In this document: positions 42,114 through 47,469 of the stretch, in pieces
Layout: the number at the start of each line of letters is the position of its first letter
How positions within the stretch are numbered: the stretch's first letter is position 1
Source: Halegenticoccus soli
GTDB taxonomy: Archaea; Halobacteriota; Halobacteria; Halobacteriales; Haloferacaceae
Assembly: GCF_002844195.1 (NCBI RefSeq)
Contig: NZ_PEND01000002.1
Span: 620,001 to 684,000 of the forward strand
Direction: 5' to 3'
DNA: 64,000 nucleotides
Notes under the pieces: model-generated
The model's database searches: none
What the model was told of the DNA's origin: nothing
Seen by the model: only the letters and a program-made list of their open reading frames with translations
Translations under genes and position numbers: made by a program

Positions 42114-42263
42114 CCGCCCGCGGACTTTTTCGGCTTCCCCGCGGGTGAAGTCGGCCGAGCGCGGGTGGAACGGACGATTCCCGCGGGGAGCGTTTCGACT
42201 CGAACGAGTCGATAAACCGACAGAATGAGCTATACGCGCGCGCGAACCACGGTACCGTATGGC

Positions 42264-43082
42264 ATGAAAGTCGACGGCGGGACGTTCGGCGCCGCGGATT
42301 CGCCGATCGACGACGTCGGGTACCTCGCGCGGTCAGAACACCGCGCCCCGACGCTCGTCGCGCTGAGCGCTCGCCCCCGGAGTCGATCCGAACTGTGGGA
42401 ACTGACCGGGGTCTCGTCGTCGACGATCCGCCGGACCCTTCGGGAGTTCGAAAGCCGCAACTGGATCCGCAGGAACGGGTACCGGTACGAGACGACGCAG
42501 CTGGGAGCGTTCGTCGCGGACGCGATGGAGGAACTGCTCGACCGGGTCGAAACCGAGCGGAAGCTTCGGGACGTCTGGAACTGGATTCCGAGCGAGGAGA
42601 GCGGCTTCACCATCGAGATGTGTTCCGATGCGGTCGTGACGGTCGCCGAACCCGACGACCCGTACGCTCCGGTGAATCGATTCGCGTCGTTACTCCGGAA
42701 GACGAACGGGTTCCGGTTCGTCGGGTTCGACGTCGCCCTGCTCGAACCCTGCAAGGACGCGCTCCGAGAGCGGATCGTCGACGGCATGGAGACGGAGATC
42801 ATCGATCCGCCGAGCGTCGCCAGGTACATCCTCTCGACGTATCCGGAGCACTGTTCGGAGCCGCTCGAAAGCGGCAACTTGACGGTTCTGCTACACGACG
42901 GGCTGCCGCCCTACGGGATTGGGTTCTTCGACGACCGAATCGCCGTTAGCTGCATCGATCAGGACAGCGGAACCGTCCGGGCGTTGATCGACACCGACGC
43001 GCAGGCCGCCCGGGAGTGGGCGGAGTCGACGTACGAGCGGTACCGACGCGAGGCCCGGCCGCTCGAATCGGTCGTCGAGTGA
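42264..43082 (+). CDS. Winged-helix regulator with FilR1/MrpR-like sensor domain (paralogue 1)
   Basis: This 272-residue regulator has an N-terminal winged helix (SRSELWELTGVSSSTIRRTLREFESRNWI, DNA-binding) and a C-terminal domain like the DUF1724/FilR1 sensor of archaeal regulators (FTIEMCSDAVVTVAEPDDPYAPVNRF...GFDVALLEPCKDAL...LESGNLTVLLHDGLPPYGIGFFDDRIAVS). ATG 42264 lies about 32 bases after a TATA-like GCTATACG. ATG 42225 is also in frame, but 42264 matches the start of the paralogue that follows at 43180. The two proteins are alike along their whole length, so a tandem duplication is certain. The next genes, DUF1059 and OsmC, are likely targets. Confidence 0.85.
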   Translation: MKVDGGTFGAADSPIDDVGYLARSEHRAPTLVALSARPRSRSELWELTGVSSSTIRRTLREFESRNWIRRNGYRYETTQLGAFVADAMEELLDRVETERKLRDVWNWIPSEESGFTIEMCSDAVVTVAEPDDPYAPVNRFASLLRKTNGFRFVGFDVALLEPCKDALRERIVDGMETEIIDPPSVARYILSTYPEHCSEPLESGNLTVLLHDGLPPYGIGFFDDRIAVSCIDQDSGTVRALIDTDAQAAREWAESTYERYRREARPLESVVE

Positions 43083-43179: not shown

Positions 43180-44004
43180 ATGCTATCGAATACCAAAGAT
43201 CCGGGTGGCACGGGATCGTCGATCGACGACGTCGCGTACCTCACGCGGGCCGATCACCGGATCCCGACGCTCATCGCGCTGACGGTACGTCCCCGGAGTC
43301 GATCCGAACTGTGGGAACTGACCGGGGTCTCGTCGTCGACGATCCGGCGAACCCTCCGGGAGTTCGAAGACCGCAACTGGATCCGCAGGGACGGCTATCA
43401 GTTCGAAGCGACGCAGCTGGGCGCGTTCGTCGCCTCCGCGCTGGCCGAGATGATCGAACGGGTCGAGACCGAGCGGCGGCTCCGCGACGTCTGGCGCTGG
43501 CTCCCCGGCGAGGAGTGCGGTTTCACGATCGAGATGTGCTCCGACGCGGTCGTGACGGTCGCCGACGCCGACGACCCGTACCGCCCGGTGAACCGATTCA
43601 CGTCCCTGTTACGGGAGACGGATCGATTTCGGTTCGCCGGATTCGACGTGGCGTTGTTCGAGCCGTGTAAGGACGAGCTCTGTCGGCGGATCGTCGACGG
43701 CATGCAGACGGAGATCATCGATCCGCCGCGCGTGGCCAGATACATCCGCTCGACCTGCCCGGAGCTGTTTTCCGAGGCCCTGGAGAGCGGCAATCTCACG
43801 GTCCGGTTGCACGACGAGTTACCGCCGTACGGGGTCGGGATCTTCGACCGCCGAGTCGCGATCAGCGGCTACGATCCCGACAGCGTAACGGTTCGCGTGC
43901 TGGTCGATACCGACGCGTCGGAGGCCCGCGAGTGGGCGGAATCTATCTACAGGTCCTACCGACGCCAGACGCCGACGATTCCCCTCGAAACGGTCGCGGA
44001 GTGA
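43180..44004 (+). CDS. Winged-helix regulator with FilR1/MrpR-like sensor domain (paralogue 2)
   Basis: This 274-residue protein is a close paralogue of the gene just upstream: the recognition helix is the same (LWELTGVSSSTIRRTLREFE), as are the CSDAVVTVA, FDVALFEPCKDEL and LHDELPPYGVGIFDRRVA stretches. Differences cluster in the N terminus and the effector part, so the two may bind the same DNA but sense different signals. ATG 43180 lies about 28 bases after the TATA GTTATACC (43151-43158), giving a leaderless mRNA of its own. The downstream gap (44005-44139) is non-coding before a regulatory block at 44140. Confidence 0.85.
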   Translation: MLSNTKDPGGTGSSIDDVAYLTRADHRIPTLIALTVRPRSRSELWELTGVSSSTIRRTLREFEDRNWIRRDGYQFEATQLGAFVASALAEMIERVETERRLRDVWRWLPGEECGFTIEMCSDAVVTVADADDPYRPVNRFTSLLRETDRFRFAGFDVALFEPCKDELCRRIVDGMQTEIIDPPRVARYIRSTCPELFSEALESGNLTVRLHDELPPYGVGIFDRRVAISGYDPDSVTVRVLVDTDASEAREWAESIYRSYRRQTPTIPLETVAE

Positions 44005-44139
44005 CGCTCCGGGCGCCGCGGGCGGGATCGAGGACGTCGCGTCGGCTGTTCTTACGTCGCGGCACCCGCCTCGGTGAGCGCCGGCGACTCGCTCGGGTGC
44101 AGAGGCGAATCGGCATCGCGGTCGGCTCCCCGCCTTCGA

Positions 44140-44221
44140 CCGGTGACTCCCTTCCATCGGTTGCACGCCGGTCAGCGGCTGCCGCGACGCCACCAGATAG
44201 CTACCTGTCTCTCGGGCTCGT
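44140..44221 (+). promoter_or_regulatory. Regulatory block, copy A (upstream of DUF1059 gene)
   Basis: This 82-base block matches copy B (44579-44660) at equal spacing: CCGGTGAC at 44140, CTTCCATCGG at 44151, TGCAC at 44162, AGATAGCTACCT at 44195, and CTCGNGCTCGT at 44211-44221. By hand alignment roughly three quarters of positions agree. Nothing in it codes for protein. It sits 31-112 bases before the DUF1059 ATG and probably includes promoter and regulator sites. Confidence 0.75.
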
Positions 44222-44251: not shown

Positions 44252-44425
44252 ATGACAAAAGCACACAAACTCGACTGTGAGGCGGCAGCGGCCGACTGCC
44301 GGTTCATCATCCAGTCGGAAAACGAGGCGGAAGCGATCGAACTGGCCAAGAAACACATGAGAGACGTCCACGGTCGGGAGTACACGGACGAGGAACTGCA
44401 GGAGAACCACCTGCAGGTCGTGTGA
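44252..44425 (+). CDS. DUF1059-family small protein
   Basis: This 57-residue protein (MTKAHKLDCEAAAADCRFIIQ...EAIELAKKHMRDVHG...) matches the DUF1059 family, small alpha/beta proteins with CxxxxxxC-type cysteines (here C9 and C16) and a closing helix with HM..VHG. The function of the family is unknown; many members accompany redox or stress genes. ATG 44252 is 31 bases after the duplicated regulatory block A. The OsmC-methyltransferase operon downstream carries the same block, so the two are probably co-regulated. Confidence 0.82.
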   Translation: MTKAHKLDCEAAAADCRFIIQSENEAEAIELAKKHMRDVHGREYTDEELQENHLQVV

Positions 44426-44578
44426 CGATACCCGACCCCGACCTCCGCATTTTCCCGCTCCGCCTTCCCCTCGGAGCGCCGCGTTTTCGGGCGACCCGCC
44501 GGTCGCGGGGGCGCACGGCGTTCCGACTGCGGCGGGCGTTCACCACGGCGGCCACTCACCGGGAGGTACCGCCTCCAG

Positions 44579-44660
44579 CCGGTGACCATCTTCCATCGGC
44601 TGCACGGCGGGTAGTCGCCGCCGAAATCTCACGAGATAGCTACCTAACCCTCGCGCTCGT
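44579..44660 (+). promoter_or_regulatory. Regulatory block, copy B (upstream of OsmC operon)
   Basis: Second copy of the block at 44140-44221, with each conserved element at the same distance from the first (CCGGTGAC 44579, CTTCCATCGG 44590, AGATAGCTACCT 44634, CTCGNGCTCGT 44650-44660). It lies 32-113 bases before the OsmC ATG. Conservation of spacing and of AGATAGCTACCT without any coding role points to selection on DNA or RNA sequence. Confidence 0.75.
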
Positions 44661-44691: not shown

Positions 44692-45297
44692 ATGACAGAC
44701 GACCAGCAGATCAGACACGGCGTAAACGTCGACAAGCTCGAAGGGTTCGCCGAATACGCGGCCGAAAACCCCGACGAGGTGCAGCTCGGCCTCGGGGCCC
44801 GATCTACCTACGAGGGGACCTGCGCTCACAGCCTGGCGAAGATCGACTCGTACACGCTCGGCGGCGAGACGATCGCGCGCGAGACGCGCGAGTACACGAT
44901 CCCGTACGGGGGGTGGAAGGAAGTGTTGGACGCGGGCGGGTGGGTCGGCGGAACCGACCGGATGGAGCCGATAGAGGTCGCGCTCTCCGCGCTCGCCTCA
45001 TGCATCAACGTCGGCATCACCATCAACGCCGTCGCGAACGGCGTCGAGATCGAGCGTCTCCAGACGCGCGTCCGGACCGATTTCGACCCCGGCGTCCTGT
45101 TCAGCCTCGCGGACCTCGACGAGGCCGACGCCGTCTTCGAGAACCTGACTGCCGAAATCGAGGTCGCGGGCGCGGACCTCGACGAGGATCAGATAGACGA
45201 GTGGGCGCGTCGAGCGCCCGTTTACACGCTCGTCTCGCTCGCCCAGGACGTCCAGCTGACCGTCAACACCCCGGCCGAGGTACCGGTCGACGACTGA
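44692..45297 (+). CDS. OsmC-family protein lacking the second catalytic cysteine
   Basis: This 201-residue protein has the OsmC fold: LGLGARSTYEGTC, then EPIEVALSALASCINVGITINA with C104 at the peroxidatic position. In OsmC/Ohr peroxidases a second cysteine (A..CPV) resolves the intermediate; here the stretch is WARRAPVYTLVSLA, with A175 in its place. A classical thiol peroxidase cycle is therefore unlikely unless another thiol serves. GGGAGG lies 10 bases before ATG 44692. It is the first gene of an operon with a methyltransferase (14 bases after) and a membrane protein, behind regulatory block B. Confidence 0.85.
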   Translation: MTDDQQIRHGVNVDKLEGFAEYAAENPDEVQLGLGARSTYEGTCAHSLAKIDSYTLGGETIARETREYTIPYGGWKEVLDAGGWVGGTDRMEPIEVALSALASCINVGITINAVANGVEIERLQTRVRTDFDPGVLFSLADLDEADAVFENLTAEIEVAGADLDEDQIDEWARRAPVYTLVSLAQDVQLTVNTPAEVPVDD

Positions 45298-45311
45298 GAG
45301 GGTGAGAACGG

Positions 45312-46079
45312 ATGGCGAACACACTGGACGTCGAAAAACTCGAGCGGGCGGTCAAGAACGTCTACCGGGACGTCGCGGAGGCGCCGACCGGAGAGTACCA
45401 CTTCGAGATGGGTCGTCCGCTGGCCGAGCGACTCGGCTATCCGGCGGACGACCTCGACCGGATCCCCGCGGAAGCCCTCGAATCCTTCGCGGGCGTGGGG
45501 TACCACTTCGACCTCGCCGACATCGGGGAAGGAGACGACGTGCTCGACCTCGGCAGCGGGTCGGGGACGGACGCGTTCGTCGCGGCGCTCCGCGTCGGCG
45601 AGTCGGGCAGCGTCACGGGGTTGGACATGACCGACGAGCAGCTCGAGAAGGCGCGGGGGTTGCGAGACGAGGCGGGAATGGACGCCGTCTCGTTCGAGGC
45701 GGGGTACATCGAGGAGCTGCCGTTCGAGGACGGGACGTTCGACGTCGTGATCTCGAACGGAGTCATCAACCTCTCGCCGGAGAAAACGCGGGTGTTCGAG
45801 GAAGCGAATCGCGTTCTCGCCTCGGGGGGCCGGCTCGCCGTCTCCGACATCATCAGCGAGAAACAGATGCCGGAGAGCATCAAGACCGACGCGGATCTCT
45901 GGGCGGCCTGTATCGGCGGGGCCGAACAGATCGACCGCTATACGACCCTCATCGAAGCGGCCGGATTCGAGGTGACGGACGTTCGGGAAAACACCACGTA
46001 CGAGTTCATCTCCGATCAGGCAGCGAACGCGTGTCAGAAGTACGGCGTGAAGAGCGTCTCTCTCAGCGCACACAAGTGA
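45312..46079 (+). CDS. SAM-dependent methyltransferase, arsenite methyltransferase-like but lacking two Cys
   Basis: This 255-residue enzyme has the class I SAM fold: VLDLGSGSG (77-85), SVTGLDMTDEQL and VVISNGVINLSPEK. The sequence resembles ArsM arsenite methyltransferases, in which three cysteines bind arsenic. Here the first position is GVGYH (residues 61-65) instead of GCGNP, the second is SNG at 150 instead of SNC, and only C200 (AACIGGA) remains. Arsenic is therefore probably not the substrate. It lies between the OsmC gene and a four-helix membrane protein gene in one operon. The substrate is unknown; a thiol, selenol or lipid is possible. Confidence 0.83.
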   Translation: MANTLDVEKLERAVKNVYRDVAEAPTGEYHFEMGRPLAERLGYPADDLDRIPAEALESFAGVGYHFDLADIGEGDDVLDLGSGSGTDAFVAALRVGESGSVTGLDMTDEQLEKARGLRDEAGMDAVSFEAGYIEELPFEDGTFDVVISNGVINLSPEKTRVFEEANRVLASGGRLAVSDIISEKQMPESIKTDADLWAACIGGAEQIDRYTTLIEAAGFEVTDVRENTTYEFISDQAANACQKYGVKSVSLSAHK

Positions 46080-46081
46080 TC

Positions 46082-46579
46082 ATGGAAGTAACAGAACAGG
46101 CGGTAGCGGGCGAACGGGAAGAACAGGTCGAGCTCAACGGAAAGCTCCGGAGCGGGTCCCTGCTGATGGCGCTCGCGGGCGTCGGATTCATCGGCTACGG
46201 AATCGTGTTCCTCGTCCTGAATTTCGTGGGCAGCGGATTCGAACTGGGAGTCGCCCACCTCGACGGAATGACCCCGGCGGATCTGAACCCGACCGTGGCG
46301 TTTTACATCAGCCACCTCCACGTCGCCACGGCGGCGTTCATCATCTCCACGGGGATCGCGGTCACCGCGCTCTCCTGGTACGGGGTCCGCCAGCGGCTGC
46401 GGTGGGCGTGGGCCACCGCCGTCGTCGCGGCCGTCGTCGGGCTGGCGCTCGCCCTGCCGATGCACTGGGTCGGCGGGTTCTCCCACGACTGGGTGACGCA
46501 CCTCGGTCCGATCTACCTTGCCGTGGTGGTGTTCGTCGTCGGGGTCGCGCTGGCCTACCAGGGAATGCGAACCGAGTGA
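46082..46579 (+). CDS. Four-helix membrane protein of the OsmC operon
   Basis: This 165-residue protein has four clear helices (about 27-50, 77-100, 107-127 and 140-160) with a loop FELGVAHLDGMTPADLNP between the first two, and histidines in SHLHVATAAF, MHWVGGFSHDWVTH that could bind a metal or heme. ATG 46082 starts two bases after the methyltransferase stop, so expression is coupled. I do not recognise a named family. Working with a methyltransferase and an OsmC protein, it may transport or oxidise the same compound. Confidence 0.7.
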   Translation: MEVTEQAVAGEREEQVELNGKLRSGSLLMALAGVGFIGYGIVFLVLNFVGSGFELGVAHLDGMTPADLNPTVAFYISHLHVATAAFIISTGIAVTALSWYGVRQRLRWAWATAVVAAVVGLALALPMHWVGGFSHDWVTHLGPIYLAVVVFVVGVALAYQGMRTE

Positions 46580-46749: not shown

Positions 46750-47025
46750 ATGCGCGCGGACGGAACTGAGCGTCACATCGACGAGAAGGGTCGCGTCACC
46801 ATTCCGAAATCGGTCCGCGACCGGCTGAACCTGCGGCCGGGCGAACGCGTCGAGGTGTCCGTCGAGGACGGCCGCATCGTCGTCAAGCCGCGAATCTCCC
46901 GTGACTCGTTCGTCGACGCGATGCGCGGCTGTATCACCGAATCGACGCGTCGGCCCGACGCGGCCGAACTCTCCCCGGCCGACCTGAAGGCGGATTGGAC
47001 GGGCGACCTCCCGACGGGTCGCTGA
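46750..47025 (+). CDS. AbrB/SpoVT-family antitoxin (VapB-like)
   Basis: This 91-residue DNA-binding protein has a swapped-hairpin AbrB domain at its start (RHIDEKGRVTIPKSVRDRLNLRPGERVEVSVEDGRIVVKP) and a C-terminal arm (ELSPADLKADWTGDL) that would wrap round and block the toxin. It lies 3 bases before a PIN-domain gene, in the usual antitoxin-toxin order. Such antitoxins repress their own promoter; a short inverted repeat (TTCCCACC..AAGTGGGAA, 46729-46745) just before the ATG may be the operator. Confidence 0.88.
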   Translation: MRADGTERHIDEKGRVTIPKSVRDRLNLRPGERVEVSVEDGRIVVKPRISRDSFVDAMRGCITESTRRPDAAELSPADLKADWTGDLPTGR

Positions 47026-47028
47026 CGA

Positions 47029-47469
47029 ATGTACTGTCTCGACGCGAACATCTGGGTGTACTACTTCGACGCGGAGCGCTCCGAACACGAGGCGATCTCC
47101 GAGCCCGTCACCCGCCTGCTCTCCGCGGAGCCGCTTTTCACGACGACGGTGCTTCAGATGGAAGTGGTCCACTACCTGAACAACCAGCTGGCCGAGAGCG
47201 CCGACGCCGTCGAGCGCTTTCTGAACCTCGAAAACACGACGGTCGCGGCGCTCTCGCCCGAGGACGTTCGCGCCGCCGCGACCCTGCTCGACGCGTACCC
47301 GAACCTCGGAATCGACGGACGGGACGCTTCAGTCGTGGCTGCGATGGAACGGACCGACGTTTCGACGCTCTGGACGCACGACACCGGACTGAAACGGTTC
47401 GGGAGGCGACTCGACTGGCTGACGGCTCCCGATCCGGTCGAATCTCGTTCGACTCCGTCGTCCGAGTGA
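47029..47469 (+). CDS. PIN-domain RNase toxin (VapC-like)
   Basis: This 146-residue protein is a PIN-domain ribonuclease: CLDANIWVYYFD (first acidic residue D5), FTTTVLQMEVVHYLNN (E after the second strand), IDGRDASVVAAMERTDVSTLWTHDTGLKRF (later acidic residues). VapC toxins cut tRNA or rRNA when released from the antitoxin. ATG 47029 is 3 bases after the AbrB stop, so they form one TA operon. The catalytic acids appear intact, so it is probably active. Confidence 0.87.
   Translation: MYCLDANIWVYYFDAERSEHEAISEPVTRLLSAEPLFTTTVLQMEVVHYLNNQLAESADAVERFLNLENTTVAALSPEDVRAAATLLDAYPNLGIDGRDASVVAAMERTDVSTLWTHDTGLKRFGRRLDWLTAPDPVESRSTPSSE

Follow-up and report, generated by a model that had tools for sequence, protein, structure and literature searches.

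What chemistry could be shared by an OsmC-family protein and a methyltransferase related to the arsenite methyltransferases (ArsM/AS3MT) when both have lost key cysteines? In the haloarchaeon Halegenticoccus soli, the genes for two such proteins lie side by side on contig NZ_PEND01000002.1. A preliminary description of this DNA had proposed that the two co-transcribed thiol-type enzymes share a new, non-arsenic chemistry. We analyzed the locus within its window, a stretch of 64,000 nucleotides to which all coordinates below refer unless a locus is named, together with relatives of its genes in other genomes.

Gene organization of the locus

The six genes described first are all on the forward strand. 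The first two (42225..43082 and 43180..44004) code for tandem paralogous winged-helix regulators, which share a DNA repeat with 83% identity over 300 nt. Both contain the HVO_A0261_N and FilR1_middle domains (Pfam PF25213, PF08350) that define FilR1/HVO_A0261-type regulators. Two paralogues are found here and three at another Halegenticoccus locus (L001). They are followed by a gene for a 57-aa DUF1059 protein (44252..44425; PF06348), whose residues C9, C16, H35, and H40 are conserved in its homologues, suggesting that it binds a metal. Next come the OsmC gene (44692..45297), the methyltransferase gene (45312..46079) and a gene for a four-helix membrane protein (46082..46579). The open reading frames and coordinates previously given for the OsmC protein and the methyltransferase were correct, and the intergenic gaps of 14 bp (OsmC to methyltransferase) and 2 bp (methyltransferase to membrane protein) fit a single transcript.

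The membrane protein had been described as histidine-rich with four helices, which agrees with its AlphaFold2 model (pLDDT 84.5) and with an alignment of 23 sequences in which five histidines (H78, H80, H128, H135, and H140) are invariant. It matched no Pfam family above the cut-off, and a search for its fold in the PDB gave no match at E ≤ 0.001 (best E 0.056). The gene is often present without the methyltransferase, and the exporter or oxidase role suggested earlier for its product is putative. Further downstream (46750-47469), a small AbrB-like protein is followed by a PIN-domain-like protein, a pair that by eye resembles a VapBC-type toxin-antitoxin system. Taken together, the two FilR1-type regulators, DUF1059, OsmC, the methyltransferase, and the membrane protein are well supported as a regulated module.

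Cysteine pattern of the methyltransferase

The methyltransferase scored above the cut-off of PF13847 and below that of PRK11873 (NF008823; 229.2 vs 263 bits). Arsenite methyltransferases were its best matches in the PDB, and it has their fold and SAM motifs as well as the motifs ISN-x-VINLSP-x-K and C-x-GGA. Three ArsM-related selenoprotein models of NCBIfam (ArsM_AhpD_UU, ArsM_DUF2284_UU, and MTase_UXPK_star) also matched it over most of its length, but its scores were far under their cut-offs and it lacks a fused domain. ArsM_AhpD_UU describes a fusion of ArsM with an AhpD domain, which can be compared with the AhpD-like neighbor of some relatives of the window enzyme.

The only cysteines of the methyltransferase are C200 and C241. 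When aligned with CmArsM, it has V62, G150, and C200 at the positions of C72, C174, and C224, confirming that only C200 was kept of three arsenic-binding cysteines. G34 occupies the position of the fourth cysteine that is conserved in ArsM. C241 and also C44 of the OsmC protein had been left unmentioned. The published criterion for an ArsM is the presence of at least three of four conserved cysteines (CmArsM positions 44, 72, 174, and 224; PMC5552862). As C200 (equivalent to C224) alone is kept, the window enzyme is, judging from its sequence, derived from ArsM but not an ArsM by this criterion.

This pattern is not limited to the window. We aligned 113 sequences, including 56 members of the same subfamily (the window enzyme among them) and 57 other ArsM-like proteins. 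The subfamily was composed of 44 sequences with at least 63% identity, which were treated as haloarchaeal, and 12 with 50-63% identity, nearly all bacterial. Its sources were haloarchaea, Bacteroidota, one betaproteobacterium, and one woesearchaeon, and the closest relative in our collection was from Halegenticoccus (93% identity). V62, G150, and C200 were found in all 56 members and G34 in 54 of 55, whereas the other ArsM-like proteins had a cysteine at the positions of G34, V62, G150, and C200 in 55, 56, 55, and 57 of the 57 sequences, respectively. H30 was nearly invariant. C241 was present in 43 of the 44 haloarchaeal sequences vs 1 of the 12 others. A quick maximum-likelihood tree set the subfamily apart from the other ArsM-like proteins (SH-aLRT 89) and placed beside it a divergent betaproteobacterial paralogue that also has V62, G150, and C200, although deep placement is tentative because of some long branches. 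In the Bacteroidota sampled, the subfamily occurred in only about 0.5-2% of genomes.

The SAM-motif residues (G81, G83, G85, and D105) and the clade-specific residues were kept in at least 54 of the 56 members, and dN (0.031) was well under dS (0.225) in a comparison with a close relative. We reject a pseudogene or random decay of the methyltransferase because of this subfamily-wide conservation and the low dN relative to dS. The alignment and tree instead indicate that the loss of cysteines is ancestral to a subfamily spanning both domains and not a local event.

Partner proteins and promoter repeats

The OsmC protein was assigned to its family by PF02566 (34.9 bits vs a cut-off of 27.5) and by Foldseek matches to OsmC structures; its own model, due to its low confidence (pLDDT 55), serves only to confirm the fold family. 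It contains C44, which is variable among relatives, and C104, with A175-P176 at the position of the second catalytic cysteine, just as previously read. It therefore lacks the pair of catalytic cysteines that characterizes OsmC/Ohr peroxidases. Among the neighbors examined, this second position was Ala in all full-length proteins of the same type (OsmC-I) and Ser in a second type (OsmC-II) that is only about 30% identical to OsmC-I. The best match in both sequence and fold was the OsmC-like protein GSU2788 of Geobacter (PDB 2opl), which is also devoid of this cysteine and has Ser-Pro-Val near its position; the two proteins are, however, only 22% identical in the fold alignment and the window protein has Ala at the site. 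One OsmC-I protein, from a locus without this methyltransferase (L143), has a Tyr in place of C104, so the chemistry of C104 is not universal. Hence, key cysteines are indeed absent from both enzymes as the preliminary description stated, but these were not matched recent events, since the loss in the methyltransferase is ancestral and the second OsmC cysteine is also absent from OsmC-II and 2opl. At another locus (L144:2848-3126), a 92-aa methyltransferase-like fragment (53% identity) lies beside an OsmC gene and is perhaps the remnant of a lost methyltransferase gene. Our literature search found no report on OsmC with DUF1059 or on this cassette.

The association of these genes recurs in haloarchaea. 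An OsmC gene was found at 38 of 56 haloarchaeal methyltransferase loci, with OsmC-I at 26 and OsmC-II at 12 (downstream in one case). Five of the loci had an AhpD/CMD-like gene, and 46 had a FilR1-type regulator nearby. In contrast, 19 stretches taken as controls from these genomes contained no OsmC, no AhpD/CMD-like protein, and a single regulator match. Across 292 genomes surveyed at the class level, the methyltransferase was present in 48, OsmC-I in 45, and the membrane protein in 39. The methyltransferase and OsmC-I occurred together in 28 genomes vs 7.4 expected (Fisher p = 5e-15, uncorrected for genome relatedness). Many genera have retained the methyltransferase together with these partners. 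At other loci, the regulator is accompanied only by OsmC, only by the membrane protein, or by both DUF1059 and the membrane protein, indicating that the module is combinatorial. Genes for FAD oxidases, CMD, GYD, or cupin proteins were also seen at some haloarchaeal loci, and ester cyclases were among the neighbors of the methyltransferase. The FAD oxidase family was near the methyltransferase in several haloarchaea and at one Bacteroidota locus. DsrE and TusA genes were not adjacent at the haloarchaeal loci, one of which had a gene for a rhodanese-metallo-beta-lactamase (MBL) protein.

The genes of the module also have a promoter element in common. A 92-nt repeat (75% identity), starting at 44130 and at 44569, precedes the DUF1059 and OsmC genes. 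It includes tandem 18-bp units (CA-N5-TG-N9) that end at ATAGCTAC, at 44137..44204 (ATAGCTAC at 44197) upstream of DUF1059 and at 44576..44643 (ATAGCTAC at 44636) upstream of OsmC. In 60 haloarchaeal promoters of OsmC-I, OsmC-II, DUF1059, membrane-protein, and CMD genes, we observed CA at -60, -42, -24, and -6 and TG at -53, -35, and -17 relative to ATAGCTAC. These conserved positions are tandem 18-bp CA-N5-TG units adjoining the basal promoter. The conservation of ATAGCTAC itself is partly by construction, as the anchor was picked by matching it, which leaves the upstream repeats unaffected. With up to four mismatches, the pattern was found upstream of 30 of 41 OsmC-I, 8 of 11 OsmC-II, and 10 of 17 DUF1059 genes vs none in 209 kb of control DNA. 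The 18-bp repeats were thus common to OsmC, DUF1059, and partner genes across haloarchaeal genera. A genome-wide scan with one pattern (up to three mismatches) gave three matches vs one for a reversed control pattern. Two of the three were the window sites and the third was directly before a gene for a FAD-linked oxidase (L259:2137-3613, on contig C3 of the same genome, G000, from about 345636). We infer that the repeat array is a candidate operator bound by the adjacent FilR1-type regulator. The literature searched gave neither an operator nor a signal for this subgroup of FilR1/HVO_A0261 regulators.

The bacterial members have neighbors of another kind. At 17 bacterial loci, several of them related and mostly from Bacteroidota, we found genes for DsrE (8 loci), TlpA (6), DsbD_N (6), cysteine desulfurase (4), and TusA (3). 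The same queries gave one TlpA match and none for the four other families at 54 loci of other ArsM-like proteins, a comparison that favors the subfamily because the queries were drawn from its own loci. A less biased Pfam census of 76 subfamily neighbors gave DsrE (7), rhodanese (6), AhpC-TSA (6), DsbD_N (5), and TusA (2), and these five families were absent from the 25 commonest families among 101 neighbors of control ArsM-like proteins. None of the searched sulfur genes was within 4 kb at five of the 17 loci, some of which are on short contigs. Rhodanese-MBL fusions, possibly of the persulfide dioxygenase type, were observed near the methyltransferase at L012:5821-7002, L017:4045-5154, and L004:7768-8880, a set made up of Bacteroidota and one haloarchaeal locus.

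Possible substrates of the methyltransferase

The proposal of a non-arsenic chemistry shared by the two enzymes gains support from the subfamily-wide loss of arsenic-site cysteines, the recurrent OsmC and AhpD-like partners, the common promoter element, and the separate cysteine-bearing ArsM described below. We favor, with a probability of about 0.4, a sulfur methyltransferase acting on sulfide, a persulfide or a thiol, with a thiol-carrier or reductant as partner. This reading is preferred because one arsenic-site cysteine is kept and because the partners are thiol-redox proteins in archaea and sulfur-relay proteins in bacteria. The proposed reaction would be analogous to the SAM-dependent S-methylation of sulfide and methanethiol by MddA, MddH, MddM1, and MddM2 (PMC12904073), even though these enzymes, compared here by their description, are reported to be membrane, UbiE- or UbiG-family proteins.

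It is doubtful that the enzyme acts instead on an organic small molecule, such as a phenol, a quinone, or another electrophile, with C200 in a structural role. OsmC, AhpD-like, FAD oxidase, GYD, and cupin proteins would then belong to an oxidative- or electrophile-stress regulon, a grouping that we regard with the same doubt. The FAD oxidase, CMD, GYD, cupin, and ester cyclase neighbors could point to organic electrophile stress rather than sulfur, as could the third promoter site of the genome. However, such a substrate does not account well for the presence of C200 in every member or for bacterial operons rich in sulfur-trafficking families.

We consider it unlikely that the enzyme is a divergent methyltransferase for As, Sb, Se, or Te, in which C200 would be complemented by other ligands (H30, for example) or the substrate, such as dimethylarsenite, would need a single thiol. 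The clear descent from ArsM speaks for this possibility, and one thiol ligand suffices for dimethylarsenite (PMC3877260). Moreover, a single cysteine (C77), together with putative histidine ligands, is enough for arsenite methylation by a Thermus ArsM (PMC8649762), so the cysteine count alone has no power to exclude arsenic. Yet C77 may not correspond to C200, and CmArsM C174A as well as the equivalent human AS3MT mutant are inactive on arsenite and methylarsenite, a position that is Gly in all subfamily members. The genome also encodes a separate 274-aa ArsM with equivalents of C72, C174, and C224, whose gene immediately follows one of the ArsR type. A different branch is occupied by the Halobacterium NRC-1 ArsM, which is encoded near arsA and an ArsR gene and has only 41% identity to the window enzyme. 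Canonical ars genes, whose linkage is common but not strictly required for an ArsM, were absent from the window and from the neighborhoods listed for its relatives. The cysteine pattern and the existence of a distinct ArsM speak against classical arsenite methylation, which we keep as a rival in view of the Thermus enzyme.

Finally, the loss of three ArsM cysteines and the OsmC of L143 without C104 would suit a non-enzymatic role of the two proteins in binding SAM or a ligand, or else enzymes in decay, but this is highly improbable given the conserved SAM-motif and clade-specific residues, the low dN, and the retention across genera with the same partners.

Under the sulfur reading, the locus would be an inducible haloarchaeal module in which the methyltransferase gave up arsenite binding in favor of a single-thiol site. 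It would transfer the methyl group of SAM to a sulfur (sulfide, persulfide, or small thiol) bound at or presented to C200. The OsmC protein may deliver this sulfur or reductively release the product, a role that could fall to AhpD-like proteins in certain relatives and to DsrE, TusA, or TlpA proteins in bacteria. The regulator, in response to a presumed signal, is likely to work via the tandem 18-bp repeats beside the basal promoter. A wider form of this model is possible but more tentative. It would see the whole subfamily as ArsM-derived cross-domain persulfide or sulfide methyltransferases whose one conserved cysteine presents the acceptor. The small carriers that supply the sulfur would be TusA/DsrE in bacteria. 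In haloarchaea they would be OsmC of the single-cysteine type or AhpD-like proteins, and FilR1-type control would operate there via the repeats.

Because members of this subfamily score near the arsenite methyltransferase model, counts of arsenic-methylation genes made without a cysteine check could include them. The 18-bp repeats also offer a specific candidate for the operator of these archaeal regulators, a class that is common but has received little study. If the sulfur reading is true, haloarchaea and Bacteroidota would have an ArsM-derived route for sulfur methylation, and one-cysteine OsmC proteins would gain a function.
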